This document shows positions 5,121-24,180 of a stretch of 38,686 nucleotides of DNA, in pieces (the stretch's first letter is position 1; each line of letters begins with the position of its first letter). The position numbers were made by a program, and so were the translations under genes. Below the pieces are notes generated by a model, which saw only the letters and a program-made list of their open reading frames with translations, did no database searches and was not told where the DNA came from. This stretch comes from Corallococcus terminator (GTDB lineage Bacteria; Myxococcota; Myxococcia; Myxococcales; Myxococcaceae): contig NZ_RAVZ01000048.1 in NCBI RefSeq assembly GCF_003611635.1, forward strand, positions 1-38,686, in the 5' to 3' direction.

Positions 5121-5126
5121 TGCTCG

Positions 5127-5279: not shown

Positions 5280-5294
5280 GCACACCCAAGAAGC
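5271..5294. terminator. 8-bp stem hairpin between convergent reading frames
   Basis: GCTTCTTG and CAAGAAGC form a perfect 8-bp stem around an 8-base loop. It overlaps the end of the kinase remnant and lies just beyond the stop of the convergent putative immunity gene, where a bidirectional terminator would be expected. There is no long T tract, so intrinsic termination is uncertain. Confidence 0.4.
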
Positions 5295-5305
5295 AACACG
5301 GGTCC

Positions 5306-5596: not shown

Positions 5597-5736
5597 GCCA
5601 TGCCTCCCGGGTCCAGGGGGTTCAGCAGAATCTTCCAATTGAATTTCCAGGCAACCTTCGCAGCAATCGCGGCAACGCCCTGCCCCATGTTCGTGTCCGC
5701 AAACACCGCCTTCTCCTTGTTCGAAGGAGCGTATGC
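5584..5736 (-). pseudogene. toxin C-terminal stub, truncated at a dispersed repeat
   Basis: Fifty codons read from 5736 down to a TGA at 5584-5586. The peptide includes NKEKAVFADTNMGQG, AAKVAWKFNWKILLNP and a final LDPGGMAWSN. It has the mixed charged and aromatic composition of a small toxin domain, but I cannot name its family. It has no start or upstream domain: the frame meets repeat copy A exactly at its 5' edge. The stop overlaps the start of the downstream putative immunity gene. Confidence 0.5.
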
Positions 5737-5786
5737 GTATCGGCGGGATGGAGACCCTGTGGCGGGTGAGGGCTGGAGCGGAGGAG
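5735..5786 (+). repeat. dispersed 52-bp repeat, copy A
   Basis: Starts GCGTATCGGCGGGATGGAG and ends GCTGGAGCGGAGGAG. It matches copy B at 8254-8305 over the full 52 bases with about three substitutions and no gap, in the same orientation. It lies between the toxin stub and the stop of the LysR gene. Confidence 0.8.
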
Positions 5787-5790
5787 TGCG

Positions 5791-9224: not shown

Positions 9225-10223
9225 TCACTTCTTCGCTTTGAACAGCTTGCCCTGGCGCCACGCCGCGAAGAGCGCCTCCTCGGAGTAGACGGCCCGGGCG
9301 TTGAACTTGAGTTCCACCTGGCCACCCGCCTCGGCCACCGCGGCGGCGATGGCCTCCGCCTCCGCGCGGTCCATGGGCGACTTCCGCATCGTCCCTAGAG
9401 TCCTGCGCATCGTCTCCGGGAACTCGAGCCAGAGCGGCGGCGGCTTCTGGTCCAGGTACGGTGCCGGGAACCCGGTGATGGCCGCAATGCGGGCCAGCAC
9501 CTCCGGGCTCCGGCCCCCCGTGTCAGTGAGGGTCACCTCCACGGACTCGTCCTTGCCCAGGGCCCCCGCGGTCAGCGCCTTCTTCAGCGAAGCCAGGACC
9601 CCCTTGCCTTGACCCTGCCGGAACGTCTCCATCGGGTAGTGGTGCTCCACGTCGAACGACTGGGCGCGCACGTCGTGTTCGTCCTCGATGAGCAGCCGGG
9701 CCTTCAACCGCCCACCGACGACCAGCGAGTTGTCGTTGTAGTGGCCGACGACCACGTCGCCCCCGTCCAGATGGCCCCCCACGCGAACATCGCCGCTGGT
9801 CCGAAGCGCGCCCACCGCGGCATTCCCCAGGACGATGACGCTGGAGTCGGGCCCTCTGTCCGTGAGTAGCCCCGTCACCTCCAGGTTGCCGAGGACCACC
9901 AGTGTGCCCGCCACGTCGATGGCCCCTGCGACCTTCAAGTCCCCGGGGACGAAGACGCTGTGACCCACCTCCACGCCAGAGGTCCGCTCCGTGGGCGGGG
10001 CGGTCCCCACGCACCGCGCGGCGACCTGGGCCAGCGCATGGAGCCGCCAGGGCGTGGCGCCGGCCCTTCGCATCTCGGAGAAGAGCTCCGCGTAGGTGCC
10101 CACCGCAGGCTCTCGCCATGGCGTCAGCCCATCCGTGTTCTCATCTTCGAAGAGTTCGCCCGGAACGAACTGGGGAAGCAGCTCATCGAAAGCGGTCTTG
10201 AAGGACGACAGATTGATTCGCAT
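9225..10223 (-). CDS. beta-helical (bactofilin-like) protein with C-terminal WGR-type-length domain, unknown function
   Basis: This 332-residue protein has no signal peptide. Residues about 90-185 are a run of short hydrophobic repeats, such as VFVPGDLKVAGAIDVAG, LVVLGNLEVTG and SVIVLGNAAVGALRTSGDVRVGG. They have the spacing of a right-handed beta-helix, as in polymer-forming bactofilins. Flanking parts are alpha/beta, and the C-terminus (AEAIAAAVAEAGGQVELKF and FAAWRQGKLFKAKK) is a separate small domain I cannot name. Bactofilins polymerise into cytoskeletal filaments in myxobacteria. This protein is longer than a typical one, so assembly is not certain. The start at 10223 has GGTGG upstream. 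Its promoter lies against a uracil-DNA glycosylase remnant. Confidence 0.75.
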   Translation of the reverse strand: MRINLSSFKTAFDELLPQFVPGELFEDENTDGLTPWREPAVGTYAELFSEMRRAGATPWRLHALAQVAARCVGTAPPTERTSGVEVGHSVFVPGDLKVAGAIDVAGTLVVLGNLEVTGLLTDRGPDSSVIVLGNAAVGALRTSGDVRVGGHLDGGDVVVGHYNDNSLVVGGRLKARLLIEDEHDVRAQSFDVEHHYPMETFRQGQGKGVLASLKKALTAGALGKDESVEVTLTDTGGRSPEVLARIAAITGFPAPYLDQKPPPLWLEFPETMRRTLGTMRKSPMDRAEAEAIAAAVAEAGGQVELKFNARAVYSEEALFAAWRQGKLFKAKK

Positions 10224-10272
10224 ATCACCACCCACCTTACAGCACGTCCGTACGCCCTGGGCGAAGGCGTGG

Positions 10273-10395
10273 ATGGCGACCTTCCACCCCTCCGCGCTCC
10301 TGCGCATGCCGGACGAGCGGGCGCCGGCCCAGGCGCGCGTCCACTTCGAGGAGGACCTGCGCCGGGTGGCGGACACGCTGCGCGCGCTCGGGTGA
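10273..10395 (+). pseudogene. uracil-DNA glycosylase (family 4/UdgX-type) C-terminal remnant
   Basis: Forty codons ending at TGA 10393-10395 read MATFHPSALLRMPDERA, then FEEDLRRVADTLRALG. HPSALLR is the conserved catalytic-loop motif of family 4 uracil-DNA glycosylases and their UdgX relatives, and the helix DLRRVADxL is their usual C-terminus. The N-terminal two thirds, including the Fe-S cysteines and the GExPG motif, is missing. The reading collides with the start of the divergent beta-helix gene. Confidence 0.65.
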
Positions 10396-10456
10396 AGGCG
10401 CGGGTTGCACGGCGCGCGCCGGCAGCTTGGGGTGCCGCTGGCGATACCGCCCCGGT

Positions 10457-10840
10457 TCACGCCAGGGGCCGCAGATCGGGCTCAACGAACCGGGCCCGCG
10501 CTTCGGCGCTGAAGAGAACCTCGCCAGAGTAATAGTCGCCGAGGAGGTCCTTGCGACGGAATCGTGGGTGGTGCTCGAGGAACGACGTGAAGTCGCGGCA
10601 CGGCTCCACTGCCGCCCGCTCACCCACGAGCCGCGCCCACGCGACCGTCACGGTCTCGTGGAATTTCTCCGGAACTCCGAGCCGATGGGTCAGGAGCCTC
10701 AGTCCAGTACGCGTGAGCTCGACGGCGGTGTCCCTGTCGGTCGCGCGGGTGTGAAGGTAGACCACCCGCACGTGGTCGAGATGCGGGAACTCGCTCAGCT
10801 CGCCTCGTGAGAATCGTTCGAGAAAAGTCTTGTCATCCAT
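10457..10840 (-). CDS. conserved hypothetical protein under tandem-repeat operator control
   Basis: This 127-residue cytoplasmic protein has FPHLDHVRVVYLHTRA, then LRLLTHRLGVPEKFHETVTVAWARLV. The pattern (His-x-x-His, Glu-Lys-Phe-His-Glu-Thr-x-Thr) occurs in a widespread uncharacterised family, and the repeated His/Glu residues could bind metal, which is inference. I place the start at 10840 (MDDKTF) because GGAGGG lies 6 bases upstream, whereas the ATG at 10846 has no spacing from it. Three tandem palindromic 13-bp repeats lie just upstream and a MarR regulator gene is the next gene upstream in the same direction, so it is probably that regulator's target. Confidence 0.8.
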   Translation of the reverse strand: MDDKTFLERFSRGELSEFPHLDHVRVVYLHTRATDRDTAVELTRTGLRLLTHRLGVPEKFHETVTVAWARLVGERAAVEPCRDFTSFLEHHPRFRRKDLLGDYYSGEVLFSAEARARFVEPDLRPLA

Positions 10841-10861
10841 GGTCATCCCTCCGCTATGTAC

Positions 10862-10900
10862 TACGAAAACGTAGTACGAAAACGTAGTACGAAAACGTAG
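10862..10900. promoter_or_regulatory. three tandem 13-bp palindromic repeats, likely operator
   Basis: TACGAAAACGTAG occurs three times in perfect tandem. Each copy holds the palindrome TACG-AAAA-CGTA. The array sits 22 bases upstream of the ATG of the conserved hypothetical gene and 45 bases downstream of the MarR gene's stop. MarR proteins bind palindromes of about this size as dimers, so a cooperative repressor array is likely. Confidence 0.7.
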
Positions 10901-10945
10901 GAAATGAAAGAAGGGGGAGTCCAGGAGGAGACCGTCGCGGGAGGT

Positions 10946-11347
10946 TCAGGAGATTCCGCTGAGCCGTTTCATGAATGCGTTGTGGCCACGGACCGCATCG
11001 GGTCCTACCTCCGCGAGCTTCCTGTCGACTCGCGCGAAAGCGGCCTCGGCTTCTTTACACAGGGCAGCGCCACTGTCGGTGATCGAGACGAGCCAGGAGC
11101 GTCCGTCTGCGGGGTTGCGGGCGCGTTGCACGTAGCCCTGCTGCTCCAACCGCGACACCAGGCTGGTCGAAGTGGACGCTCCGATGTGCAGCGCCGACAT
11201 GACTCCGGTCATCGTCAGGGAGCCAGCCGCGAGCGTGGTCAACAGGACGGCTTCTCCGGCACCGAGGCCCGTGGCTGCGAGCTCGGCGTCCAACAACCTC
11301 GCGACCTTGTGCCCGCCAACGAGCAGTCCCGCGGTCAATCCCGCCAT
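10946..11347 (-). CDS. MarR family transcriptional regulator
   Basis: This 133-residue protein contains a complete MarR winged helix. LGAGEAVLLTTLAAGSLTMTGVMSALHIGASTST is the helix-turn-helix region, SLVSRLEQQGYVQRARNPADGRSWLVSIT is the recognition helix with the DGR-type wing, and C-terminal dimerisation helices follow. The ATG at 11347 has GGGGAGG 4 bases upstream. The tandem palindromes at 10862-10900, upstream of the next gene in the same direction, are its probable binding site. MarR proteins usually sense small phenolic or oxidising compounds; the ligand here is unknown. The region upstream contains a fragment of a peptidoglycan-binding gene, so the original promoter may have been rebuilt. 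Confidence 0.9.
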   Translation of the reverse strand: MAGLTAGLLVGGHKVARLLDAELAATGLGAGEAVLLTTLAAGSLTMTGVMSALHIGASTSTSLVSRLEQQGYVQRARNPADGRSWLVSITDSGAALCKEAEAAFARVDRKLAEVGPDAVRGHNAFMKRLSGIS

Positions 11348-11417
11348 CGACCTCCCCGTCGCCCTCGATGCAGCCACCGTTCGTCCACCTCCGTCGGACT
11401 TCCACCTTACCGTGTGG

Positions 11418-11478
11418 CCCCGGAACGAACACCTACAAGGTGCTCCAGTCCCTGCGGGCCGGGCGAACCTCGGTGTTG
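11418..11478 (+). pseudogene. peptidoglycan-binding repeat fragment, copied from a lysin gene
   Basis: The 37 bases at 11418-11454 are identical to 17848-17884 inside the lysin gene and encode PGTNTYKVLQSL. After a gap of one repeat unit, GCGGG(C/T)C(G/T)GGCGAACCTC resumes a near match to the lysin's 3' end. It is therefore the remnant of a related or duplicated gene that has lost its last repeat. Confidence 0.6.
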
Positions 11479-11529
11479 CATGAAACCTCCGGGAAAAGGC
11501 AGCGCGGCGGCCCATCCGTGGGGCCAACC

Positions 11530-11860
11530 AGGCTGCCTTCATGATCGCATCAGCCGAGCAGAAGGCCTGCACTGTCACCGTCGTCTGGTTGATGACCACG
11601 TTGCGCGGGCAGACCTGGTCGTTGCACCGAGGGTTCTGCTTGCCGGAGAGCAGGCTCGCGGTGGCGAAGCGCTCCCCGGTCATGCGGTGGATGTCGTTCG
11701 TTCCATCCAGGCGGATGGGGGACTGAACACCTTGTCGAACGACCCGTGGATCGTGTTCTCGCGTACTCCTTGCCGTCAATGCGCACCGTGGCAATGCACC
11801 GCACTCGCCTGGCGCTTCCCCCCGGGGAGCCCGCGAGGAGCACGGCAAGAATTGCCGTTC
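11530..11860 (-). pseudogene. frameshifted remnant of a secreted protein
   Basis: Three minus-strand frames join into one plausible protein. It starts with a signal-peptide-like AILAVLLAGSPGGSARR and CIATVRIDGKEYA. A shift near 11762 leads into NTIHGSFDKVFS, and a second shift in a C-run near 11719 leads into IRLDGTNDIHRMTGERF and CPRNVVINQTTVTVQAFC. No single frame encodes it. The family is not recognised. Loss by frameshift fits the decayed surroundings, although sequencing error in homopolymers is possible. Confidence 0.45.
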
Positions 11861-11937
11861 ACAGCAGACCCTGCCAGCAGCGAAGTCTGGGCCGAGCGCC
11901 GGTCATGCCCGGCGCTCGGCGAGCGTTGCGACAGCGT

Positions 11938-14220
11938 TCAGGGCGTGTACAGCTCCGCCGTTGCCAGCCGGAAGCCGGTGTTCCCCCCTCCCCCTGCGAT
12001 GAGGACCTGCCCATTGGGCAAAAGCGTCGCGGTATGGTCCGAGCGCGGTCCGACCAGGGAGCCGGCGGGGCTCCAGGTACCCGTGGCCGGGTCGTACAAT
12101 TGCGGCATCTGATCCGACGCGACGAGCACCTTGCCATCGGGCAGCAGCGTCGCCGTGTGGAGGGCACGAGTTTCGGCCATGGAGCCGACGGGGCTCCAGG
12201 TGCCCGTCGCCGGGTCGTACACCTCCGCCGTCGCGAGGGAGGAGACGAAGATGTCCACTCCTCCCGTGACGAGCACCTTGCCATCGGGCAGCAGTGTCGC
12301 CGTGTGGAAGGCGCGAACTTCGGTCATGGAGCCCGTGGGGCTCCAGGTGCCCGTGGCCGGGTCGTACACCTCCGCCGTCGCCTGAGTGGGGGGACCGAGT
12401 CCCCCTGCGACGAGGACCTTGCCATTGGACAGCAGCGTCGCCGTGTGGGCCCAACGACTTGCAGCCATGGAGCCAGTCGGGCTCCAGGTCCCCGTGGCCG
12501 GGTCGTACACCTCCACCCTCAAGGGCCCGCCGATGTCGCTGATGCCCCCCGTGACGAGCACCGTGCCATTGGGAAGCAGCGTCGCCGTATGGTTGGAGCG
12601 ACGATCCTCCATGGAGCCGGTGGGGCTCCAGGTCCCCGTGGCAGGGTCGTACACCTCCGCCGTCGCGAGAAAGACATTGGAATTGAGTCCCCCTACGACA
12701 AGCACCTTGCCATCGGGTAGCAGCGTCGCCGTGGGCTGCGAACGCGCTTCAGCCATGGAGCCCGTCGAGCTCCAGGTCCCCGTGGCCGGGTCGTATACCT
12801 CCGCCGTCGCGAGAGCTTCGCCATCCGCTCTATCTCCCCCCATGACGAGCACCTTGCCGTTGGGCAGCAGCGCTGCCTTATGGCTGGAGCGAGGCCCCTC
12901 CATGGAGCCAGTCAAGGCCCAACTCCCCCCTGTACAGGCCGGCAGCCCCGTCACGGTGAAGGTGCGGGTGGCTGTCAGTTGGAAGGCATTGGTGACGGTG
13001 GCGGTGATGGAAGGGGGCGCGCTGGCACAGGACGGAGCCATCCAGGTGATGCGGCTGTGGGAGGCGTCGCTGGCCGGCGTGCCCAGCGAACCGGTGTTGG
13101 CCTCCCAGGAGAACGTGAGGGCGGAACCTTCCGGATCGCTGGCCACCACCTCGTAGGTGAGCTCCTGGCCCGGGGAGGCCGTGTCCGAGGAGCGGTAGGA
13201 GCGGATGATGACGGGGTTGAAGTGTTGGGCCGGGGGCGTGTTGCTGACGCACAGCGCGACGGTGCCGGTGTTCTGTCCGCCGCGCCCATCGGTGACCGTG
13301 ACGGTCAGACGGCAGTTGTTACAGGTACCGGCGGGCAGGACCGACGGCGTGAAGTGAGCAGCACTGGAGGAGGCCTGGGCCCAGTTGCCGGCACAAGAGG
13401 CGCTCCAGGCGTAGGAGAGGCTGTCACCGTCCGGGTCGGAAGCCGAGGCGGAGACAGACGTCGTCTGCCCGACGGCCAGGAACGTGGGGCTGGCACTGAG
13501 AGCGGCCACCACGGGGAAACTGTTGAAGGAGATGGACAGGTCCGCATCTCCCTCGCCGCCAGCCGTGACGTTGACAGCCAGCACGACGCTGGAGGACAGG
13601 CCGCGCGAGTCCGTCACGGTCAGGCTCAGGGTCGCAATGCCCGTGGAGGCAGGCGCGGTCCATGACGTGGCGGCAGCCGAGGGAGCGGAGAAGGAGCCCG
13701 CGGTCGCACTCCAGGCGTAGGAGAGGGTATCGCCGGGATTGGGATCATGTGCGGTGGCGGTCAGGGAGATGGAGCCACCTGCGGCCACGGAGGTGGAGGA
13801 GGCCACCAGGGAGTCAATGAGGGGAGCCTCGTTGTCGAAGGGAGGCGGAGGCTGGAGTTGCTGAAGGGTGATGGCGACCAGGGTGCTCTGGTTGGCGGTG
13901 ATGGTGACTCCCGTGGCGGAACCTTCGAAGAGCAGGAGGCCGGAGGAGTCGAAGGCCTGGGCCAGAAAGGAGCGATTGGAGCCCGCGGGGATGTTGCCAA
14001 TGAGGCCTCCCCACCCGCCGTTGGTCGCAGCCAGGTCCACGGTCACCGTGGGGATGTCCGCGGCGCTCGAGGTGACCGAGACGCGAGCGATGTTGGAGGC
14101 GAGGGTCTGGCTGACAGAGACCGCGAACCGGACCGAGCCGGGATCATTCGAGGAATCAGAGCAGCCCGCCAGCAGCGACACGGTGAGCGCGAGCATCAAC
14201 GGAGTGAATGCTTTCTTCAT
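11938..14220 (-). CDS. lipoprotein with Ig-like domains and seven Kelch repeats
   Basis: This 760-residue protein starts MKKAFTPLMLALTVSLLAGC (lipobox Cys at 20), so it is exported and lipidated. The ATG at 14220 has AGGAAGG upstream. Residues about 130-440 hold three or four Ig-like/PKD-type domains, each with a xLSYAWSA core. Residues about 440-760 form a beta-propeller of seven Kelch units of the form EVYDPATGTWSPTGSM, then HTATLLPDGKVLVTGG; one unit is degenerate (VLVASD). Such proteins are numerous in myxobacteria and probably act as surface adhesins or binding scaffolds, which is inference. High DNA identity between the repeats makes the gene prone to recombination. Confidence 0.9.
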   Translation of the reverse strand: MKKAFTPLMLALTVSLLAGCSDSSNDPGSVRFAVSVSQTLASNIARVSVTSSAADIPTVTVDLAATNGGWGGLIGNIPAGSNRSFLAQAFDSSGLLLFEGSATGVTITANQSTLVAITLQQLQPPPPFDNEAPLIDSLVASSTSVAAGGSISLTATAHDPNPGDTLSYAWSATAGSFSAPSAAATSWTAPASTGIATLSLTVTDSRGLSSSVVLAVNVTAGGEGDADLSISFNSFPVVAALSASPTFLAVGQTTSVSASASDPDGDSLSYAWSASCAGNWAQASSSAAHFTPSVLPAGTCNNCRLTVTVTDGRGGQNTGTVALCVSNTPPAQHFNPVIIRSYRSSDTASPGQELTYEVVASDPEGSALTFSWEANTGSLGTPASDASHSRITWMAPSCASAPPSITATVTNAFQLTATRTFTVTGLPACTGGSWALTGSMEGPRSSHKAALLPNGKVLVMGGDRADGEALATAEVYDPATGTWSSTGSMAEARSQPTATLLPDGKVLVVGGLNSNVFLATAEVYDPATGTWSPTGSMEDRRSNHTATLLPNGTVLVTGGISDIGGPLRVEVYDPATGTWSPTGSMAASRWAHTATLLSNGKVLVAGGLGPPTQATAEVYDPATGTWSPTGSMTEVRAFHTATLLPDGKVLVTGGVDIFVSSLATAEVYDPATGTWSPVGSMAETRALHTATLLPDGKVLVASDQMPQLYDPATGTWSPAGSLVGPRSDHTATLLPNGQVLIAGGGGNTGFRLATAELYTP

Positions 14221-14325
14221 GAGGCAGCCTTCCTCATTGACAATTCCTTGCAGCCAGATTGCTGAAGGACAATGATCTCCCTGCGACAGACATGGCGAGG
14301 AGTTTTGGCAATGGAAGGCGGCTCT

Positions 14326-14336
14326 GGACATTGTCC
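14326..14336. promoter_or_regulatory. short palindrome in a divergent intergenic region
   Basis: GGACATTGTCC is a near-perfect palindrome (GGACA-T-TGTCC) between two divergent exported-protein genes. The related words GACAATTCC and GGACAATGA occur within 100 bases. It could be an operator, but nothing else supports this. Confidence 0.25.
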
Positions 14337-14481
14337 CAGTAGCTCATGCGCCGTTGCTCGTCAGACGAATGCGGACGCCTGCTTGGGTACTGTCAGGGGA
14401 TGAGGAGTCCTGGAGGCGGGGGCGCCGGCGTGAAATGCTCTGGCGGAGGCCCGTGAGGCTGGAATCAGGGAGGCAGGGAAG

Positions 14482-15402
14482 ATGGGCGTTGGAAAGCGGT
14501 CCGCTCTGGGTTCGGTGTTCATCGTGCTCCTGGGCGCGGTCGTTCCTGGGGCGAGCAGCGCCGCAGCTCCGGACGGTCTTGAGCTCATGCGCTTCAAGGC
14601 GAGCGAAAAGACCGAAGCGATGTTTGTCCTGCGCGCCTCCGGCTGCCGCAAGGCGGGCGACACCTGCCGGCTCGAACTCGAGCTGAGCGATGGGACGGAC
14701 GGGACGCGCAAGGCGAGGCTGCCCGACGGCATGGCTCACGGGATCCGGAAGGAATCCCGAGGGGCCGCATCCTCCGGGACATGGACCTCGGGCGAGGAGG
14801 AGCGCAACGTCACGACCTCCGTCCAGCCGGTGCGGCTGGAGGCCGGGGAGTGGGGACTCCTCGTCACCCAGGAAAGCGGGTTCGAGCATGTCCATCGCCG
14901 GCACCGCCTCTACGCGCTCAAGGACGGCGGGGTGACGGAAGCCTGGAACGGGGATGAGAACTTCGCCGGTCCGGAGATGTCCCACGTCGGCCCGTACCCG
15001 CTGGCGCCGGGCTCACCGGTCGAGGGCTTCTACAGGGAGTATGCGTTTCTTTCCGCCGACAGGGAGAGCGGCGAGCCCGACCAGTGGAAGCTCGATGCCT
15101 ACCGCTGGGATGCCGCGGGCCGCAAAGCGGTGAAGGAGCTTCGGCACCGGCCCGAGCGCCACGCGGCCATCATTGGAAGCTTCAAGACAGCCCAGGAGGC
15201 GATTGCGTACCGCGACGGCGCGCAGTTGGAGCAGGCCTGCGCGAGCAGTTTCCTGGTCCTCGAAACCAAGCCGTTCAAGCGCCTGACGCCGGGGCTGTTC
15301 ATCGTGACGGGGATTCACTCGAAGAAGAATGCAGCCGAGGCCGCGCTGAAAAACGCGGGCGCCTGCAATCCAAGAGTCTCGGGTTACGTCAAGGCGCTCT
15401 GA
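14482..15402 (+). CDS. exported protein with C-terminal SPOR-like region
   Basis: This 306-residue protein has a signal peptide (SALGSVFIVLLGAVVPGASSA) and should be periplasmic. The central 180 residues contain two Cys (SGCRKAGDTC) and a beta-rich domain I do not recognise. The last 75 residues have the order of a SPOR domain: AAIIGSFKTAQEAIAYRDGA, then FLVLETKPFKRLTPGLFIVTG, then KKNAAEAALKNAG. SPOR domains bind denuded glycan strands of peptidoglycan at division sites. The match is moderate, so this is a likely rather than certain assignment. A GGGAGG lies upstream of the ATG. It immediately precedes the modular lysin gene and may act on the same polymer. Confidence 0.75.
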   Translation: MGVGKRSALGSVFIVLLGAVVPGASSAAAPDGLELMRFKASEKTEAMFVLRASGCRKAGDTCRLELELSDGTDGTRKARLPDGMAHGIRKESRGAASSGTWTSGEEERNVTTSVQPVRLEAGEWGLLVTQESGFEHVHRRHRLYALKDGGVTEAWNGDENFAGPEMSHVGPYPLAPGSPVEGFYREYAFLSADRESGEPDQWKLDAYRWDAAGRKAVKELRHRPERHAAIIGSFKTAQEAIAYRDGAQLEQACASSFLVLETKPFKRLTPGLFIVTGIHSKKNAAEAALKNAGACNPRVSGYVKAL

Positions 15403-15493
15403 GCACGAAAGGAAGCGCGAAGGTGCGTCAACCCTCCCCTACCCTGGATAAGCAGGCTAAGCTCAAAAAGCCTGTTTCAATCCAGGGAGCCGC

Positions 15494-17968
15494 ATGCACA
15501 CCCGAGCCCGTCCAGGGAACTTCATCCAACGCCTCGCCTCGTCCCCCTTGAAGCTGCTGTGGGGCCTCGTCGTCCTGACTGCCTGTGGAGGCCTGGAGCC
15601 GGAGGGCTCGGGGAGCCCCGACGGGGTGACCCAGGCAGAACAGGCCCTTGCGCCAGCCAACGTGCAGGCCTTCTACGCGGAAGCCCGGTGGGGCACCCGC
15701 TTTGGCGTCACGGGTCCCTATTACGGTCCCGCGGGCCACCGGGGGCTCGACCTCCCCGCGGGCGCGGGCCAGGCGATCCCCGCGCTCCGCTCGGGCATCG
15801 TCCGCCGCGTCCAGTACTCCTCCGTCGTGGGGCACACCATCGCAGTGGAGTCCGCCCCCGGTGACTTCTCCGGGTATGCCCACGTCATCCGGACGCGCTT
15901 CGCGGTGGGCGATTCCGTCCAGCAGGGAGACATCCTCGCCTATGTGGCGGGCTCCGGAGATGACCATGGCTCGGCGTGGAGCGGGTCCCACCTCCACATG
16001 ACCCGGGGCACCACGGACCGCTGCGCGTTTGGCGAGAACGTCAGCGACCCCGCGCCGCTCATCCGCAACGTGCTCGGCACCGGCAGCGGCGGAGGTACTG
16101 GCAGCGGCGGAGGCTCCGGGGGAATCCAGGTCAGCATCGACGAGGGGAAGGTCCTCCAGCGCGTGGCCCAGCGCGGCGGCTACACGGGCGCGGTGGATGG
16201 CGTGCCCGGAGTCAACACGTGGAAGGGCGTCCAGACGGTCATCGCCGGCAAGGGCTTCTACTCCGGCCCCATCGACGGCCTGCCGGGTGAGAACACCTGG
16301 AAGGGAGTCCAGCGGCTCGCCCAGCTCGGCGGGTACACGGGCCCCGTGGATGGCTTCCCGGGTCCGTACACCTACGCGGGGCTCAACACCTGGCTGGCCC
16401 AGGGCCCCGGGACGCCTCCACCGTCGGGGATGAGCGGTGTGTATGGGATTGATGTCGGCACGACGCAGCGGGATCTGGATTTCAATGCCATCCGGAGCGC
16501 CGGCTACCAGTTCGCCATCGTCAAGGCCGGCGGCTCCAATGTCTCGCCCCTCTACGTCGCGCCCTACTACACCCAGCAGGTCGCCCGGGCTCGCGCGGCC
16601 GGGCTCCTGGTGGGGCATTACTGGATGGCGGGCTCGTACAACCCCGCCGGTGACGCCCAATACTTCGCGGACCACCTGTATGACCACCGCCCAGGCGACC
16701 TGCTGGTGCTCGACAACGAGGCCATCGACGACGGCATCTTCTGGAACGACTCCATGACCGCGAGCTTCATGCAGGCCATCAAGACGCGGCTGGGAAAAGC
16801 CCCGTTCCTGTACACGTACTCGAGCCTGCTCCAGGCCAACTCCTGGTCCCAGACCCGAGCCGTGGGCTCGAAGCTCTGGATTGCCCATTACACGGGCACG
16901 CCGGGCAACCCGTCCGTGGGGACGGCCTATCCGACGTGGGAGATCCACCAGTACACGTCGTCCGGAAACCAGAACGGGATTCCGCTCGACCTGAATGTCG
17001 CGAAGCTGTCCGCGTTCGCCGGACTGGCCCAGCCCCCGCTGGGCGTGACGCCGCCTCCGCCGACGGCCATCCCCGGAGGGAGCGTGGGCGGAGGTGCCCC
17101 CGTCATCACCGTCGCGCAGGGAATCATCCTGCAGAAGCTGGCGCGCCGGGGCGGCTACACCGGCCCCCTCGATGGCGCTCTGGGGGCGCAGAGCTGGATG
17201 GGCGTCCAGAAGGTCCTGCGCGAGCTGGGTTACTACGCGGGGCCCGCCGACGGCATCCCGGGCCTCAACACCTCCAAGGGATTGCAGTTGCTGGCCCAGG
17301 ACGGTGGCTACACAGGCCCCATCGATGGCATCCCCGGGCCCAATACCTACAACGGTATCCAGGCGTACCTGGACGGGTCCTCCGGCCCCGTGCCGGCTGT
17401 CACCCAGGCCCAGGGCCTGACGCTGCAACGGATTGCCAGCGCGGGCGGATATACCGGCGCGGTGGATGGCGTTCCCGGGACGAGCACGTGGAAGGGCATC
17501 CAGCAGGTCCTCGGTGGCTATGGCTATTCAGGGCCCGTGGATGGCGTCATGGGCACCCTGTCGTACGCGGCGCTCCAACGCTTCGCCGCGAAGGGCGGCT
17601 ACACGGGCCCCGCCGACGGTGCCATGGGCACCCAGTCCTGGAAGGGCGTGCAGACCGTGCTGCGGGGCTTCGGGTACACGGGCCCCCTTGACGGCGTCAT
17701 GGGCTCCCAGTCGTACGCGGCGCTCCAGCGGGTGGCGCGCCTGGGCGGGTACATGGGCCCTTCCGATGGAGCCATGGGCGTGAACTCGTGGCGAGGCCTC
17801 CAGACCTTCCTGAGCGGCGCCGGGTACACGGGCCCCCTCGACGGAGTCCCCGGAACGAACACCTACAAGGTGCTCCAGTCCCTGGCGCACCGCGGTGGCT
17901 ACTCCGGGCCGCTCGACGGCATCCCCGGCCCCAACACGTACGCGGGTCTGGCGAACCTCCTGGACTGA
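15494..17968 (+). CDS. modular bacteriolytic lysin: M23 peptidase, GH25 muramidase, about 13 binding repeats
   Basis: This 824-residue protein starts with a signal sequence ending in a lipobox-like LTAC (C31). Residues about 60-195 are an M23 metallopeptidase: HRGLD (H82, D86) and SHLHM (H166, H168) are the zinc and catalytic residues. A Gly-Ser linker leads to three 24-residue repeats of the form GGYTGPxDGxPGxxTWKGVQ. Residues about 317-510 are a GH25 muramidase: YGIDVGTTQRDLDF (D320), GLLVGHYWMA and LLVLDNEAID (D407, E409). Ten more repeats run to the end. The two catalytic domains would cut stem peptide or cross-bridge and the glycan strand. The architecture resembles phage endolysins that act on Gram-positive cells, so a role in predation is plausible. 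Operon membership with the preceding SPOR-like gene is possible (91 bases apart). Confidence 0.88.
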   Translation: MHTRARPGNFIQRLASSPLKLLWGLVVLTACGGLEPEGSGSPDGVTQAEQALAPANVQAFYAEARWGTRFGVTGPYYGPAGHRGLDLPAGAGQAIPALRSGIVRRVQYSSVVGHTIAVESAPGDFSGYAHVIRTRFAVGDSVQQGDILAYVAGSGDDHGSAWSGSHLHMTRGTTDRCAFGENVSDPAPLIRNVLGTGSGGGTGSGGGSGGIQVSIDEGKVLQRVAQRGGYTGAVDGVPGVNTWKGVQTVIAGKGFYSGPIDGLPGENTWKGVQRLAQLGGYTGPVDGFPGPYTYAGLNTWLAQGPGTPPPSGMSGVYGIDVGTTQRDLDFNAIRSAGYQFAIVKAGGSNVSPLYVAPYYTQQVARARAAGLLVGHYWMAGSYNPAGDAQYFADHLYDHRPGDLLVLDNEAIDDGIFWNDSMTASFMQAIKTRLGKAPFLYTYSSLLQANSWSQTRAVGSKLWIAHYTGTPGNPSVGTAYPTWEIHQYTSSGNQNGIPLDLNVAKLSAFAGLAQPPLGVTPPPPTAIPGGSVGGGAPVITVAQGIILQKLARRGGYTGPLDGALGAQSWMGVQKVLRELGYYAGPADGIPGLNTSKGLQLLAQDGGYTGPIDGIPGPNTYNGIQAYLDGSSGPVPAVTQAQGLTLQRIASAGGYTGAVDGVPGTSTWKGIQQVLGGYGYSGPVDGVMGTLSYAALQRFAAKGGYTGPADGAMGTQSWKGVQTVLRGFGYTGPLDGVMGSQSYAALQRVARLGGYMGPSDGAMGVNSWRGLQTFLSGAGYTGPLDGVPGTNTYKVLQSLAHRGGYSGPLDGIPGPNTYAGLANLLD
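16165..17968 (+). repeat. about 13 peptidoglycan-binding repeats in two blocks
   Basis: Three units precede the muramidase domain (about 16165-16400) and ten follow it (about 17120-17968). Each is 34-37 codons, alternating a GGYTGP-type and a longer GFYSGP-type unit. Nucleotide identity between the units is high, so unequal crossing-over could change the number. Confidence 0.7.
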
Positions 17969-18240
17969 CGCCACCGCTGCCCTCCCTCCATACGTGCGGG
18001 TCCTCCAGGCCCTCCAGGCGCGGATGGACCGGCGCCGGGAAGCACTGGAAGCGGGGAACGAACCCGTTCTGGAAGATGAAGCCGCTGCTGCGTAGCCGAG
18101 CAGGAACGCCTGGCGACCGAGACAGGCCGCCAGATGGCCGTGGGGACTGCCGGGGTCCCCACCCCACTTCGACGTAGACTTCCAGGGTCCACCGGACGAT
18201 TGAACCTCCGGCAGGAGAAAACGCCCCCAGGAGTTTCGCC

Positions 18241-19929
18241 ATGCCCGTCTTGAAGATGAACACCGCCTCCTCCCTGTTCGACCCGAAGGCGCCCACGGGT
18301 CCAGTGCTCGAGGGGATTTCGGGGCGGGCGAAGACGGTCAAGCCGCTGACGGAGCGCGCCTACGCGCAGATCGAGCAGGGGCTCAAGAGTCAGCTCGGCC
18401 GGAAGAGCGCACGGCAGGCGTTCTTCCAGGCGCAGTCCGGCACGGTGCCGGCTGTCGAGCCCAAGCTCGGCTTCCTCCTGGAGCGAGCGAAGATTCCCCG
18501 CGTGCTCGCGCAGAAGATGGCCGACCTGACCGAGGGCTACCACAAGCAGATGCTCGCGCTGATCGAAGCCACCGACACGGTCAACGACGAGGACACCGAA
18601 CTCATGGCCCCGGAGATCCAGGGCCACTTCGAGAAGAGCCGCGTGACGGCGGAGCGCTTCCAGGAAGCGATGGAGGGCATCGAAGACGTCTACACACAGC
18701 TCCGCGCCGAAAGCAGTCAGGTGGTGCTCGAGGCCCTCAAGGCCATCAATGTCCTCTCGACGGACTCACCCACCAAATTGCAGCTCGCGGCCATGCTCTT
18801 CCAGAAGTACGGAATCGAGTACAGCTTCGACACCCAGTTCAACGGGACGCTGAACTTCACGAAGCTCACGCCCAGGCAGACGCTCCTTCCGCTCATGAAG
18901 GGCGCCAACGTCTACGACAACAAGCAGAAGACCTTCGAGTACCTGCTCAGCCACCAGACCAAGGTCAACAATTCCTCGGAGCGGCCCAACCAGGCGACGA
19001 CGCCCGATGGCACGCTCATCGAGATGCTGCATCAGGTGCAGCCGAAGCACGAAACGAGCGTCTTCAGCGATCACGCGGGCTTCATCGCCAGGCTCTCACG
19101 CCCCAGCAAGGACAGCCCGTCGCTGTATGTCTATTACCATTCGCTCGAACACGGCCACCAGCACACCAACACGCGAACCGCCTGGAACTTCGGCTCGCAG
19201 CCCAGCCTGAACGTGTTCCTGCAGGGCGCCGGTGCCTTCAATCCAGAGCAGGCCAAGACCCTGGCGGTGCACGACCCTCGTTCGGCGTACGTGGACAACC
19301 TGAGGAACGGGCTGATTGACAAGCTGATCAAGATCACCCACGCGGAGCAGGCGAACCTGCTACTCATCGTCGGGGAATGCACGCTGTCCATCCATGAGCA
19401 ACTGCTCGACCTGGTCCTCCAGTTCGAGATGCCCGGCGGTCAGCGGCAACGCTTCCCGCTGAGCAAGACCCATGTGCATGGCACGCCCACGCAGGCCCCT
19501 GGCTTCGACCTGAAGGTCATCAACGCCAGCAAGGCCGACGATACGAAGGGCAAGGGGAAGAGCTCCGACGGCCTGGGTGTGCACGCCTTCATGGGCTACC
19601 TGTTCCTCAACACCCAGGTCCCCAAGCCAGGCTTCGACCTGGAGCCGTGCCTGCTGACGCTCACGGATGGCACCCGCCAGAACATGCTCAGCCTCACCTA
19701 CGGACCCAAGGACGAACGGCACGCCTTCGCGCACCTGCTGAACAAGAAGGAGAACGATCTGGCCAACGAACTGTCCAAGTGCGGTTACGTGAGCGTGGGC
19801 GGGGACCTGAACAACATCACCGTCGGCACCGATCTGGTCGAGTCCCTCAGCAACACCGGCACGAACATCAGCATGGGGAGCAACTCCACCGCGAACGTCA
19901 TCTACGACAAGATCACGATGCTGCCGTGA
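18241..19929 (+). CDS. uncharacterised 562-residue protein
   Basis: I do not recognise a family with confidence. There is no signal peptide or membrane segment. The first 180 residues are helical and charged. The middle and end contain SLEHGHQHTNTRTAWNFG, LLLIVGECTLSIHEQLLDL and HAFAHLLNKKENDLANELSK. The C-terminus, VSVGGDLNNI followed about 30 residues later by NVIYDKITM, resembles the GDFN and YDRI motifs of the DNase I-like fold. The final SDH motif of that fold is absent, so the resemblance may be accidental. The start has AGGAG 9 bases upstream. The gene is isolated, convergent with the crystallin-tailed lipoprotein, and less GC-rich than its neighbours in places. A cytoplasmic or non-classically secreted protein is the safest description. 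Confidence 0.75.
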   Translation: MPVLKMNTASSLFDPKAPTGPVLEGISGRAKTVKPLTERAYAQIEQGLKSQLGRKSARQAFFQAQSGTVPAVEPKLGFLLERAKIPRVLAQKMADLTEGYHKQMLALIEATDTVNDEDTELMAPEIQGHFEKSRVTAERFQEAMEGIEDVYTQLRAESSQVVLEALKAINVLSTDSPTKLQLAAMLFQKYGIEYSFDTQFNGTLNFTKLTPRQTLLPLMKGANVYDNKQKTFEYLLSHQTKVNNSSERPNQATTPDGTLIEMLHQVQPKHETSVFSDHAGFIARLSRPSKDSPSLYVYYHSLEHGHQHTNTRTAWNFGSQPSLNVFLQGAGAFNPEQAKTLAVHDPRSAYVDNLRNGLIDKLIKITHAEQANLLLIVGECTLSIHEQLLDLVLQFEMPGGQRQRFPLSKTHVHGTPTQAPGFDLKVINASKADDTKGKGKSSDGLGVHAFMGYLFLNTQVPKPGFDLEPCLLTLTDGTRQNMLSLTYGPKDERHAFAHLLNKKENDLANELSKCGYVSVGGDLNNITVGTDLVESLSNTGTNISMGSNSTANVIYDKITMLP

Positions 19930-19951
19930 CCTGCCGTGGGCAAGCCCAGGT
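19929..19951. terminator. imperfect hairpin between convergent genes
   Basis: ACCT, then GGGC-AA-GCCC, then AGGT can fold with a five-base bulge between two convergent genes that are only 67 bases apart. There is no T tract, so this is a weak candidate. Confidence 0.3.
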
Positions 19952-19996
19952 GCTCCAGAGTCACCGTCGAACGTCCTCCTCCGCTTGCACTCCGTC

Positions 19997-21502
19997 TCAG
20001 TAGGCCAGCCACCGCGCGGAGGACACCTTGTCCCCGAAGCTCCAGTGGTTCAGGTTGACCTCGTGGAGCATGCCGTCGCCCACCAGGTCCTTGTAGCTGC
20101 CCTGATGGTTGGAGTCGTTGTAGAGCCGCACGCGATGGCCCGGCGGGATGCACCAACGGACCGCGGAGGCCTTGTCGTTGAACTTGTCCACGTCGTTGAA
20201 GCGGGCCCAGTTCTTCAACCCCTGGTCCTCGTAGTCGAAGATGACGCCCCGGTCGCTGAAGTCGGAGTCGTCGTAGAAGTCCACGTAGGCGCGCTGGAGG
20301 TCGGCGCGGCAGAAGGGGTCCGCCCAGACGCTGCGGAACTCCACCATCTTCACCGTCGAGCCAGGGCCGTCATCCGCGTGCTCGGTGGCGTAGAGGATGA
20401 GGCTGCGGTCGGGCCCCACGAAGAGGCCGGCGGCCGCGTCCAGGTTGCACTGCCGCGACCCGTCATTGCTGCAGTACAGGTGCTTGGACGCGACGTGTTC
20501 GATGCGCATGTGGCCGTCGAGCTTCACCCGATACAGGTGGGCGTAGTCGTCGCTCACCGCGCCCCAGCGCAGCCCGCCCAGCCGCGTGCCCACCAGGTAG
20601 AGCTGTGAGTCATTGCAATCCGTCACGAAGTTGAGGTTCTGGAACGCGCCCCACTCCCCCTGCCCCAGCTCCGCCTTCTCCCAGAAGTCCACGCGCTGCC
20701 ACTGATTGCTCGCGGAGCGGATGTTGGTTTCCGAGGAGCGGAAGACCTCCAGCGCCTCCGCATCCTCCTGCCCGAGCAGCAGCAGGGAATGCCCGTCCGA
20801 CAGCTTCGTCAGCGACGCCGTGCCCGCGTTCGACGTGAGGCCCTGGATGTAGGCATGGGGGCTCGGGTTCAGGCCCGGGTTGTAGTCATAGAGCGCGACG
20901 CGGCCCAGGCCCGGCCCTTCCTCCAGGGGCAGGGCGAGGACGTTGCCCACCGCCTGCATGCCGCCGCCGTGGCGGTAGCCGCCTGGCACCGGCAGCGCCG
21001 CCACCGCGACGTCCCCAACCGGAGGCGCGGTGTCCTCGGGCTGCTGGGTGGAGACCGCCAGCCGGTTGGAGCGGAAGCGCCGCCCCTCCCCGTTGCGGCT
21101 CTCCATCCGCACCAGGTGCCCCACGTTCCCCAAGGCCGCGTCATCCCGCTTGGACACGACGAGGTAGCGGCCGGAGCCCAACGTCAGGCGCTGGATGCCT
21201 TGCCAGTGGTTGCCGCCCGGGTAGGCCACGTTGAGGTTGAACGGCCCGGGGTGGAAGCCCAGCGCCTCGCCGTGGTCCCGCAGCTCCTGGAAGCGGAGCG
21301 GCACGTCCGGGCTGCACAGGTTGCAGTCCGGGCTTCCCCAGGTGCAGGTGGTATCCCCTCCAAGCCCGACGCTCAGGGAGGACGCCGCGCCACGGACAGC
21401 CACGTCAGGGCTGGGGGCCTCTGGTTCGCAACCAGCGAGCGTCAGCAACCCCGCCAATGACAAGACCACGGTGGGCAGGCGACGACGAGGAATGTGGGAC
21501 AT
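19997..21502 (-). CDS. lipoprotein with beta/gamma-crystallin-like C-terminal domain
   Basis: This 501-residue protein begins with basic residues, a hydrophobic run and the lipobox LAGC (C25). Residues about 60-390 are strand-rich with Gly turns (GVQRLTLGSGRYLVVSK-like pattern, SKRDD) and look like a beta-propeller. The last 95 residues match the beta/gamma-crystallin fold: VDFYDDSDFSDR, ARFNDVDKFNDKASAVRWC, then VRLYNDSNHQG, LNHWSFGDKVSSARWL, with the paired Asn/Asp-Lys-x-Ser-Ser calcium-site pattern. Myxobacterial crystallin-type proteins such as spore coat protein S bind calcium and coat the cell surface, so a calcium-dependent surface role is a fair inference. The ATG has AGGAG upstream. 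Confidence 0.85.
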   Translation of the reverse strand: MSHIPRRRLPTVVLSLAGLLTLAGCEPEAPSPDVAVRGAASSLSVGLGGDTTCTWGSPDCNLCSPDVPLRFQELRDHGEALGFHPGPFNLNVAYPGGNHWQGIQRLTLGSGRYLVVSKRDDAALGNVGHLVRMESRNGEGRRFRSNRLAVSTQQPEDTAPPVGDVAVAALPVPGGYRHGGGMQAVGNVLALPLEEGPGLGRVALYDYNPGLNPSPHAYIQGLTSNAGTASLTKLSDGHSLLLLGQEDAEALEVFRSSETNIRSASNQWQRVDFWEKAELGQGEWGAFQNLNFVTDCNDSQLYLVGTRLGGLRWGAVSDDYAHLYRVKLDGHMRIEHVASKHLYCSNDGSRQCNLDAAAGLFVGPDRSLILYATEHADDGPGSTVKMVEFRSVWADPFCRADLQRAYVDFYDDSDFSDRGVIFDYEDQGLKNWARFNDVDKFNDKASAVRWCIPPGHRVRLYNDSNHQGSYKDLVGDGMLHEVNLNHWSFGDKVSSARWLAY

Positions 21503-21774
21503 GGGATCTCCTATGGCTTCTCTGGCGACTACTTCAGAAGGGGCGGCAGCGGTGACGGGCGCGGGGCTCCGCCATAGGTTCGTCCGAGTCGGAGGAACCA
21601 GCAACGCCACAGTTGACCGAGCACGGTGGCCACGTGGGCTTCGTCACACTGGAGCCCTGCCCATTCATCACCTCCCGACCCGAGCACTAGGCAGGATGGG
21701 CACCTGCGCGTTAGCATCGCGAGCACGTCAATCTTCAGCTCCCAAGCCAATGGGCGAACACCTGGAGGCCTCTT

Positions 21775-22731
21775 GTGGCGCAGCTTCCGCTTCCTCCTGA
21801 GCAGCAAGAGAAAAAGCGACAGAGCGTCCTCAAGGATTACATCTGGCTGCGGCATGAAAGCCATAAGGTCGATCCAAAGCGCGCCAAGCCGCCCAGGGAA
21901 GACACCAGGACGACCGAAGACAAGGAGCCACACCTCGACGCTCAGGCCCTCATCAAGGGGAACCTGGCCAAGGGCGTGCATTCCTACGCGTTCATCAAGG
22001 GCAAGAAGGTCTCCCGCGCGGAAGGAAAGGAGTACTACGCCTGGAACGCATGGAATTTCCTCGGCTCGCTTTCCAGAGGTGACGTCCGCGACATCTACCG
22101 TGGGGCGCCATGCGCCTGGTATGACTTCTACCAGCCCGACTAAAAGCCGAACTTCCACCAAGCCTTTCCCATCAAATCGCTCGGCGGCTACCGCAGTATC
22201 GGGAGCTACGAGGAGCTGAAGGAGTTCGTCGCCTACTACAAGAGCCTGCCCAACCGGAGCGTCGAGGAGAACGCACAGCTCCAGTATGCCGCCATCTGCC
22301 GGGGCAAGGTGGGCATGTCGCTCAATCCCAGCGTCACCGCATCGGTCGTTGGCTGCTCGTTTCCCTACAAATGGCAGGCCCACCACATCCTGCCCATGAA
22401 CTGCTTTTACACATACCTCCAGGACTGGCACGTCCGGGTCATCCTCTCCTCGAACTACGACATCAACGCCGGCTCGAACATCATCTTCCTGCCGGAGAAG
22501 CCCGATGGGATGCTGCACCACAAGCTCCCGTTCCACCGCAGCTCGCATGCCGACTACGACATCCGACTCAAGGGCGACTTCCAGAAGTTCCAGGATCTGC
22601 TGAATGAGAAGAAGGAAGATGACGAGCCCCACGAGGCCATCGCCGAGAACGCCGAAGCAACGCTCCGCGAAATGGAAACCGAAGCATTCCAATACCTGTC
22701 GCGCTCTTTTGGAATGCGCAAGCTGACCTAG
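21775..22731 (+). pseudogene. AHH-type HNH nuclease toxin, interrupted by an in-frame stop
   Basis: The frame starts at GTG 21775 (GGAGG 6 bases upstream) and continues to 22731 apart from one TAA at codon 123 (22141-22143). Both sides are clearly the same protein. After the stop, KWQAHHILPMNCF (His203-His204), SNYDINAGSNIIFLP and LPFHRSSHADYD form the conserved AHH nuclease core of the HNH/ENDO VII superfamily found in polymorphic toxins. Codon 123 differs from the Gln codon CAA by one base, so a C-to-T change is the simplest explanation. Alternatively it is a sequencing error or a reinitiated shorter protein. The downstream genes are immunity-type proteins, which supports a toxin role. There is no recognisable trafficking domain; such short nucleases are often type VI effectors. 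Confidence 0.75.
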
Positions 22732-22754
22732 CCCTGCCGCTGCTTCTCCCTCCC

Positions 22755-23348
22755 ATGGCCAACTCCGTCATCGTCCGAGACACCCGCTTCCAAGATTCCG
22801 CCATCCTCTCGGACCACCCTTCCGAGCTGAGTGACAAGGCATTCCGGTTCCGCCGCGGGGTTCCCCTGAAGGATTGGGTGCCCGTGAACGCCCCGTATCC
22901 CATGTCCCCGCAGTGGCCGGACCGCCGGGCGCTCTACGACTTCCAGAGCAACACGCTCAGCCTGCTCATCATCTCCCGGCGGTGCAGGGACGTGCTCGAA
23001 TCAGGCCACCATGCCAACATTGAGTTCCTCCCCGTCACCCTCCTCGACCATCGCGGGAAGGTCGCGAGCCCCAGTTACTTCATCGCGAACATCCAGGGTG
23101 CCGTCGACTGCATGGACCTGGAGAGATCCATCTTCAGGCCGGAGCCGCTCAAGCCCTCGACCTTCGCCAGTTGCAGTCGGCTCGTGCTCCGCGACGACCG
23201 GATTCCCGAAGACGTTGAGCTCTTCCGACTGAGCAACGGCCCGACAACCTACATTCTCAAGCAATCGCTCAAGGAGCGCCTCGAAGCAGCGGGCATCCAA
23301 GGAGCGGCCTTCATCCCCGAGCACGAATACAACTCGGCGCTCTACTGA
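22755..23348 (+). CDS. DUF1629 / Imm11-type immunity protein
   Basis: This 197-residue cytoplasmic protein shows the complete DUF1629 pattern. An N-terminal strand pair is followed by LLIISRRCRDVLESG, FLPVTLLDHRGKV, FIANIQGAVDCMDLERS, VLRDDRIPEDVELFRL and LKQSLKERLEAAGIQGAAFIP. This family is repeatedly found next to nuclease toxins as an immunity protein. It starts 23 bases after the AHH nuclease gene, in the same direction, so it is the most likely cognate antidote. No strong ribosome site is visible, which suggests coupling to the upstream gene; the TAA in the toxin may therefore reduce its expression. Confidence 0.85.
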   Translation: MANSVIVRDTRFQDSAILSDHPSELSDKAFRFRRGVPLKDWVPVNAPYPMSPQWPDRRALYDFQSNTLSLLIISRRCRDVLESGHHANIEFLPVTLLDHRGKVASPSYFIANIQGAVDCMDLERSIFRPEPLKPSTFASCSRLVLRDDRIPEDVELFRLSNGPTTYILKQSLKERLEAAGIQGAAFIPEHEYNSALY

Positions 23349-23350
23349 CC

Positions 23351-24166: not shown

Positions 24167-24180
24167 ATGAGGCCCTCTCC

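Follow-up and report, generated by a model that had tools for sequence, protein, structure and literature searches.

The stretch of DNA analysed here (the window) comprises 38,686 nucleotides of the Corallococcus terminator genome (contig NZ_RAVZ01000048.1, positions 1 to 38,686) and carries, at 15494-17968 on the plus strand, an ATG-initiated open reading frame (ORF) of 824 amino acids, a single coding sequence (CDS) for a whole two-enzyme lysin. From its N-terminus, the protein consists of a signal peptide with a lipobox, an M23 metallopeptidase domain, three repeat loops, a GH25 muramidase domain, three more loops and a final series of seven; the linkers between the domains are rich in glycine and proline. 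The GC content at third codon positions (GC3) is 0.88, like that of the other window genes. The lysin is the sole GH25 protein, and the only full-length copy of its kind, found in its own draft genome (863 contigs).

Catalytic domains, binding loops and signal peptide

Pfam profiles recognised the M23 domain (PF01551, 47.5 bits against a cut-off of 28.7), the GH25 domain (PF01183, 95 bits, cut-off 27) and, over four stretches, PG_binding_1 (PF01471, 62.1 bits, cut-off 23). Against the NCBIfam peptidoglycan hydrolase equivalog NF052336, which from the model's name we take to be the family of the archaeal hydrolase Woldo (see below), the score was 59.2 bits, below the cut-off of 500. The M23 part contains HxxxD and HxH motifs and aligns with solved M23 domains including LytM, and the catalytic Asp and the DxE pair of GH25 are in register with 1jfx (cellosyl) and 4kru. 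All the residues listed for both domains in Table 1 are invariant in the 24 rows of an alignment of 23 myxobacterial orthologs with a homolog from Cryobacterium (described below). The median ratio of nonsynonymous to synonymous substitution (dN/dS) was 0.16 and the maximum 0.26 (253 pairs among the 23 orthologs), with values of 0.098 for GH25, 0.178 for M23 and 0.185-0.251 for the loop blocks. The lysin is under purifying selection.

The initial annotation had described an M23 peptidase and a GH25 muramidase with 13 GGYTGPxDG repeats. Both domains, with their active residues intact, and the number of repeats stand; the literal motif does not, since by eye about 4 of the 13 loops match it and the others differ by one to a few letters (e.g. 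GFYSGPIDG). A degenerate motif of the type GY-x-GPxDG located the loops in blocks of 3, 3 and 7, at residues 229, 254 and 280; 554, 579 and 605; and 652, 677, 702, 727, 752, 777 and 802. Tandem Repeats Finder independently found a 75/150-bp periodicity in the repeats. In each of the 13 loops the DG is the same in all 24 rows, so the pattern is not due to chance.

An AlphaFold model of the whole protein was poor (mean predicted local distance difference test score, pLDDT, 43.9) and was used only for counting helices in the repeat blocks, where helices sit between consecutive loops; with this model, Foldseek returned nothing at E ≤ 0.001, the best match being the GH25 structure 2x8r at E 0.016. 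When the second three-loop block (module B, 93 residues) was predicted alone, on an alignment of 11 modules taken from the window, from orthologs and from viral contigs, it formed a confident unit of four helices and three loops (pLDDT 96.4, predicted template modelling score, pTM, 0.88). We read the 13 loops as four such modules, arranged 3 + 3 + (3 + 1 + 3), because the seven-loop block shows eight helices in the low-confidence whole-protein model. Three of the five best matches of the module in BFVD carry names: an M15B peptidase of an uncultured Caudovirales (TMq 0.81, E 1e-6), Lysin A of Microbacterium phage ValentiniPuff (TMq 0.69, E 3.6e-4) and the endolysin of Microbacterium phage BonaeVitae (TMq 0.69, E 3.6e-3). 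The closest solved structure is the N-terminal domain of SleB, a weak match (Z 5.0, root-mean-square deviation 4.0, 70 residues aligned), followed below Z 5.0 by parts of SltB3, CtpB and phiKZ gp144; a domain of AmpDh2 likewise resembles the module.

The signal sequence with a lipobox-like Cys, which had been noticed in the initial annotation, is conserved among the orthologs. The lipobox LTA-C31 has its counterpart after a hydrophobic stretch in all 23 orthologs; position +2 is always Gly, and position +7 is Glu in 21 and Gly in the other 2. It was kept despite drift of the surrounding signal region, which is 22-33% identical to that of the window in 6 of the 14 other distinct orthologs (the Archangium type) and 53-97% in the rest. 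In Myxococcus xanthus, Lys at +2 directs lipoproteins to the inner membrane and Ala at +7 to the matrix, while those of the outer membrane have no conserved signal, according to the accessible text of Bhat et al. 2011 (PMC3222651). Since the lysin has neither Lys at +2 nor Ala at +7, these rules point to the outer membrane as its predicted destination. Outer-membrane vesicles are a possible route out of the cell, by analogy with M. xanthus, whose vesicles contain lipoproteins (8 of the 46 vesicle-specific loci in the part of PMC4158809 consulted).

Table 1. Features of the lysin gene, in window positions
Feature	Position	Strand	Evidence
Ribosome-binding-site-like AGGGAG, 5' of the ATG	15484..15489	+	By eye; similar purine-rich stretches precede many orthologs
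Whole CDS, 824-aa lipoprotein with M23, GH25 and 13 peptidoglycan-binding-type loops	15494..17968	+	Pfam, motif search, orthologs
Predicted type II (lipoprotein) signal peptide, residues 1-30, lipobox L-T-A	15494..15583	+	Lipobox in 23/23 orthologs
Codon of Cys31, predicted lipidated +1 residue (+2 Gly, +7 Glu)	15584..15586	+	Ortholog alignment; M. xanthus sorting rules (PMC3222651)
M23 metallopeptidase domain, residues 81-169 (H82, D86, H130, H166, H168)	15734..16000	+	Pfam; 24/24 rows; alignment to solved M23 domains including LytM
Module A, loops 1-3, residues 213-305, four predicted helices	16130..16408	+	Motif search, model
GH25 muramidase domain, residues 319-496 (D320, D407, E409; D499 just beyond the Pfam match)	16448..16981	+	Pfam, structure alignment, conservation
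Module B, loops 4-6, residues 538-630, four predicted helices	17105..17383	+	Predicted alone
C-terminal block, loops 7-13, residues 636-824, eight predicted helices, read as two modules and one joining loop	17399..17965	+	Whole-protein model, low confidence

Relatives on actinobacterial plasmids and in phages

The only other full-length copy found outside the myxobacteria is a GH25 family lysozyme (WP_240632544.1) encoded on a linear plasmid (NZ_CP021994.1) of Cryobacterium sp. LW097, a Gram-positive bacterium of the Microbacteriaceae (Actinomycetota) from glacier sediment. In a tblastn search of plasmids it matched in one piece over residues 47-823 at 61.2% identity; a global alignment gave 63% and was collinear through the linkers, and the distances to the 23 myxobacterial copies were 0.345-0.370. 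The other matches are 24-45% identical and partial (29 of the 45 among the other plasmid matches listed and 26 of the 26 in phages), so that 61% across phyla is far above background. Ten of the 13 window loops match best the Cryobacterium loop at the same position, with loop 4, which scored 0 at its own place probably because of gap trimming, counted as a miss. Because of this shared register, the array of 13 loops is probably older than the separation of the two lineages, and the gene probably moved in one piece.

The first residues of the Cryobacterium frame, MAVPANVLSFYAESRW, are aligned to A53-P54-A55-N56 of the window protein; by eye, a stretch resembling a ribosome-binding site precedes this start. 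No signal peptide was found upstream in this frame, which begins where the mature domain of the myxobacterial proteins begins. In the plasmid record (locus L044, 15016-17340) the start is annotated about 350 bases later, at 15370, which hides the M23 domain. The gene lies near recombinase and transposase genes.

Other actinobacterial plasmids carry parts of the same architecture. The seven-loop block matched 8 plasmid records, all 8 from Actinomycetota (Streptomyces 7, Cryobacterium 1). On a megaplasmid of Streptomyces sp. NBC_00012 (locus L045), an M23 protein (about 3886-4797, minus strand) and a GH25 protein (about 4827-5963, plus strand) stand back to back with identical repeat tails, and this arrangement suggests that the two halves of the lysin were once separate proteins.

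Among phages, the likeness is to modules. The five best PHROGs families for the window protein are endolysins (best E 2.8e-37) and, together with the Microbacterium phage lysins in BFVD, they bear out the proposed resemblance to lysins of actinobacterial phages and indicate binding and catalytic modules of the endolysin type. In a collection of 50,697 phage records, the endolysin of Zooman matched over the repeats (29.6% identity, 31% of the query), and a query with the Cryobacterium protein gave 6 matches. No relative was confirmed in IMG/VR by scans with single proteins or with the repeat alignment A3; a scan with the two-row alignment A1 yielded five partial relatives. One of these viral contigs (L110) encodes an amidase-type endolysin with three loops according to PHROGs, and two others (L111 and L113) appear near-identical by eye. 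The fourth (L112) combines a different N-terminal domain with three loops, and the fifth (L109) has, between tail genes, an M23 protein that lacks a leader, shares the FYAESRWGNR start and is 42% identical. Since the repeats sit in actinobacterial plasmids and phage lysins, transfer from Actinomycetota to Myxococcaceae is the simpler reading of these sequences. The nearest full-length relative is in Actinomycetota. Neither outcome that the initial annotation had named as refuting came about: the relatives found are not confined to genes for remodelling the self wall, and the active residues are intact.

Two further repeat proteins were noted. A second lipoprotein with GYTGPxDG repeats is encoded elsewhere in the same genome (G000:C117, locus L002, 913-1824) and is perhaps another converted lysin; a two-sequence blastp comparison aligned it with a protein on viral contig L112 at 37% over 213 columns (E 7e-21). 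If so, lysins may have been turned into lipoproteins more than once. Another myxobacterial lipoprotein, consisting of three loops only (locus L060 of genome G071, 1180-1752), is 46% identical over 161 columns to a small repeat protein of the Cryobacterium plasmid (L044, 30408-31001), possibly reflecting a second exchange between the same groups.

Carriage and changing location within the family

Full-length copies are present in 23 of the 96 genomes of the window's family (7/16, 4/6, 3/4, 4/7, 1/1 and 4/27 by genus, the window's own first), and among 195 genomes of the phylum no full-length match was found beyond this family (E ≤ 1e-20). The nearest named ortholog, at 96%, is that of Corallococcus praedator CA031B. 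The other Corallococcus carriers known by name are sicarius, carmarthensis, llansteffanensis and sp. CA053C, and named carriers outside the genus are Myxococcus llanfairpwllgwyngyll..., a Myxococcaceae metagenome-assembled genome, Pyxidicoccus caerfyrddinensis, Archangium violaceum Cb vi76 and A. lansinium. One genome of the family (G063) retains only a 64-residue C-terminal match (73%) within a 76-residue frame; hence the gene is lost at times. As a side observation, all 7 carriers in the window's genus have genomes of at least 10.2 Mb and all 9 non-carriers of at most 10.1 Mb (rounded), probably a subclade effect.

The surroundings of the gene differ from carrier to carrier. Contexts were compared for 22 of the 23 carrier genomes, one of them upstream only (G075 was left out). 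An immediate neighbour is common to 3 of 231 pairs of contexts, and any of up to ten neighbours to 14 of 231. In six Corallococcus carriers, the 1.4-kb flanks of the lysin align over 30% in 0 of 15 pairs on either side. With the L002-type repeat lipoprotein as a control in the same six genomes, the flanks align in 6 of 15 pairs upstream and 15 of 15 downstream, or 10 of 21 and 21 of 21 when G009, excluded from the lysin set because its lysin runs to the contig end, is added. In the contexts compared, homology does not extend more than about 90 bp upstream of the start codon or about 60 bp beyond the stop codon (hits over 60 bp; L072, one of 18 contexts, lacked an anchor and was left out). Homologs of the gene immediately 5' of the lysin (14482-15402) were compared in 8 other Corallococcus loci, and the lysin follows only in G009, 1.85 kb on. 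Some of the 7 loci without the lysin share the DNA that follows (G010/G006/G011; G011/G008; G004/G006), and none of this shared DNA was found in the window.

In approximately unbiased (AU) tests on the lysin tree, monophyly was rejected for the genus groups g41 (p-AU 2e-7), g8 (0.0019) and g12 (0.035), and so was a g15+g16 clade (0.0007; a group chosen after seeing the rpoB tree); monophyly of g1 was not rejected (0.157). The rpoB tree grouped g41 and placed g15 with g16. Because monophyly of three genera is rejected and the neighbours differ, movement of the lysin between genera within the family is supported. Lysin and rpoB distances nevertheless correlate (Pearson 0.51 over 253 pairs, a value that none of 2000 permutations reached), so that inheritance appears to be partly vertical.

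These data bear on the possibility that the lysin is a self-wall enzyme, that is, an outer-membrane lipoprotein facing the periplasm and remodelling the cell's own peptidoglycan, for example in sporulation or fruiting. Such a role would agree with the resemblance of the module to domains of SleB, SltB3 and AmpDh2, with very weak matches of the M23 domain to MepM and EnvC (E 0.14 and 0.21) and with the low dN/dS, which is expected of any working enzyme. A gene of this kind would hardly be absent from 73 of the 96 family genomes, including 9 of the 16 in the same genus, vary in position and neighbours and have its closest relatives in Actinomycetota, and we consider this explanation rather unlikely.

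The absence of a constant neighbour also speaks to a second alternative, a SitA-like toxin of kin discrimination or competition that is moved by outer-membrane exchange and attacks non-kin from the periplasm. The conserved lipobox and the patchy, wandering distribution are what toxin loci would show, and SitA lipoprotein toxins with linked immunity have been described (PMC10433427, in the portion available). Beside the lysin no linked immunity gene is apparent, given the 3 of 231 pairs cited above, and transferred SitA toxins are described as acting in the recipient's cytoplasm and not on walls (same portion). We regard this explanation as very unlikely.

That there are no phage genes around the lysin, as initially annotated, was confirmed by a PHROGs scan of 10 window proteins (9225-25278, the lysin excluded), in which only a Kelch/PKD protein had matches, to one Hoc-like decoration family and to four families whose function is unknown. 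We do not class the lysin as an endolysin because a phage context was tested and found absent; a phage endolysin by context was rejected on these 10 proteins and on the 22 contexts without a constant neighbour. Nor are mobile-element genes visible beside the lysin in the window. A decaying or recently captured, non-functional prophage endolysin would explain the modules common to phage lysins, and the G063 fragment shows that loss does occur; set against full-length copies in 23 genomes with a median dN/dS of 0.16, a signal peptide whose lipobox is maintained and the lack of phage genes nearby, this origin is scarcely credible. A defence-system reading was discarded as well, since neither the lysin nor the two neighbours scanned with it matched anything in PADLOC.

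Several other window genes deserve mention. The Kelch/PKD protein (11938-14331) is a lipoprotein with 144-bp tandem repeats. A 562-aa protein (18241-19929) has no Pfam, PHROGs or PADLOC match, and homologs of 54-55% identity occur in only 4 other genomes of the 96. About 4 kb downstream of the lysin, at 22309-25281, an AHH-type nuclease fragment, an Imm11 immunity protein and a ketoacyl-synthase-like protein stand in a row as an effector-immunity block. Finally, a 1124-aa protein (33559-36933) with PG_binding_1 and C39-like peptidase domains is another possible wall-directed protein.

Proposed function and known systems

The chemistry, the anchoring signal and the ancestry of the lysin are well supported by the sequences; the direction of transfer, the placement in the outer membrane, the exposure at the surface, the use against prey and the target are what we infer. 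We think it reasonably probable that the protein is an exported lipoprotein lysin of foreign ancestry, anchored in the outer membrane, that cuts foreign, probably Gram-positive, walls. The two chemistries, the many grip modules, the lipid-anchor signal, the lack of a constant partner, the patchy carriage and the foreign ancestry fit a weapon or digestive tool directed at other cells better than a housekeeping enzyme. Such predators may thus have taken a wall-cutting enzyme from a group on which they can prey and tied it to their own envelope.

In the scheme that we propose, a bicatalytic hydrolase composed of modules found in lysins of actinobacterial plasmids and phages (M23, GH25 and the four-helix peptidoglycan-binding unit) would have entered the myxobacterial family, retaining the whole 13-loop architecture and gaining an N-terminal lipoprotein signal. 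As a solitary gene, it would then have spread to further members of the family and changed its place in their genomes. The protein would be exported by Sec, lipidated at Cys31, sorted to the outer membrane and displayed on the cell surface or on vesicles. Its modules would grip the peptidoglycan of another cell while M23 cleaves the peptide bridges and GH25 the glycan strands, leading to lysis mainly of Gram-positive prey or competitors, at first guess actinobacterial. A more specific version, which we offer tentatively as a possibility, holds that a plasmid or phage lysin from actinobacterial prey was made a surface-tethered contact weapon by the lipoprotein signal and passed among myxobacteria as a solitary gene, no immunity partner being needed as the outer membrane and the target preference would protect the owner.

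Several points weigh against this interpretation. An outer-membrane lipoprotein may face the cell's own periplasm, and lysis of Gram-negative prey may be conceivable too. Only one full-length actinobacterial copy is at hand, so the direction of transfer is not proven by the sequences. The 26 matches in the phage collection are distant, with identities up to 35.5%, and cover at most 31% of the protein; with the closest relative on a plasmid, these alignments do not establish a straight phage origin. An Imm11 gene lies about 5 kb downstream of the lysin, beside the AHH nuclease, although it is not among the recurring lysin neighbours. Finally, the ancestry of a binding domain does not fix the target, since the hydrolase Woldo of Halogranum salarium kills Halalkalibacterium halodurans and did not inhibit Phycicoccus, the actinobacterium tested; in the same work, binding-domain similarity was often, though not always, a guide to the target, and for 256 of 479 phage endolysins the host ranked among the first ten (PMC12352652, available text).

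The same enzyme chemistry would also serve a scavenging hydrolase that digests the walls of cells already dead, with the tether holding the products near their producer. Nothing specific speaks against this explanation, which differs from that of a lysin attacking other cells only in whether the substrate cell is alive or dead; we judge it unlikely. The interpretation as an anchored lysin against foreign walls is plausible and, as far as sequences can tell, strengthened in ancestry and anchoring, and the cross-phylum full-length homolog, the module structure and the changing location lay beyond the reach of the initial annotation.

Few enzymes are known by which myxobacteria breach Gram-positive walls. 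According to the part of a review consulted (PMC10433427), few individual myxobacterial lytic enzymes have been characterised. The lysin is a defined, single-gene, patchy candidate for such breaching, and its role in prey range is directly testable thanks to natural carriers and non-carriers within one genus. It is also a clear case of a whole multi-module lysin common to Actinomycetota and a Gram-negative predator, occurring without a leader in the former and as a lipoprotein in the latter. With its two catalytic domains and 13 loops, it might moreover find use as an antibacterial. No description of it or of a myxobacterial GH25 was found in the literature searched, outside which most subscription papers lie: the main text of a myxobacterial survey of carbohydrate-active enzymes (PMC12093494) does not contain 'GH25', and a word search of the main text of the Corallococcus silvisoli secretome (PMC10875029) gave neither GH25 nor M23.

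Among known systems, bacteriolytic wall hydrolases of predatory myxobacteria are represented by the GH19 lysozymes LlpM and C25GH19B, which belong to a different enzyme family; a Corallococcus GH19 lysozyme lyses Gram-positive cells and, less so, Gram-negative ones (PMC9098779, in the portion available). GH25 muramidases, the enzyme family of the lysin, have been transferred horizontally across domains and put to antibacterial use (Metcalf et al. 2014, PMC4241558); the accessible text does not describe an M23 plus 13-loop architecture, and a word search of it for 'myxo' gave no hit. The lysins of the Microbacterium phages ValentiniPuff, BonaeVitae and Zooman share the module fold or the repeats, but they are phage-encoded and their matches cover the repeat part only. 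The Cryobacterium LW097 protein has the full M23-3-GH25-3-7 architecture with glycine-rich linkers; it differs in lacking a signal peptide and in residing on a linear plasmid. Woldo, the closest analogue with tested activity, is like the lysin an exported protein with M23 followed by PG_binding_1, from an organism outside the target's group, but it is archaeal, lacks GH25, has two binding domains and uses a Tat signal (PMC12352652, available text). In its sequence, the lysin has the layout of weaponised hydrolases of the zoocin A and Woldo type, that is, an export signal, a catalytic domain and a binding domain. Weaponised or transferred peptidoglycan hydrolases are a kind already known, and this lysin is a fresh variant of it.

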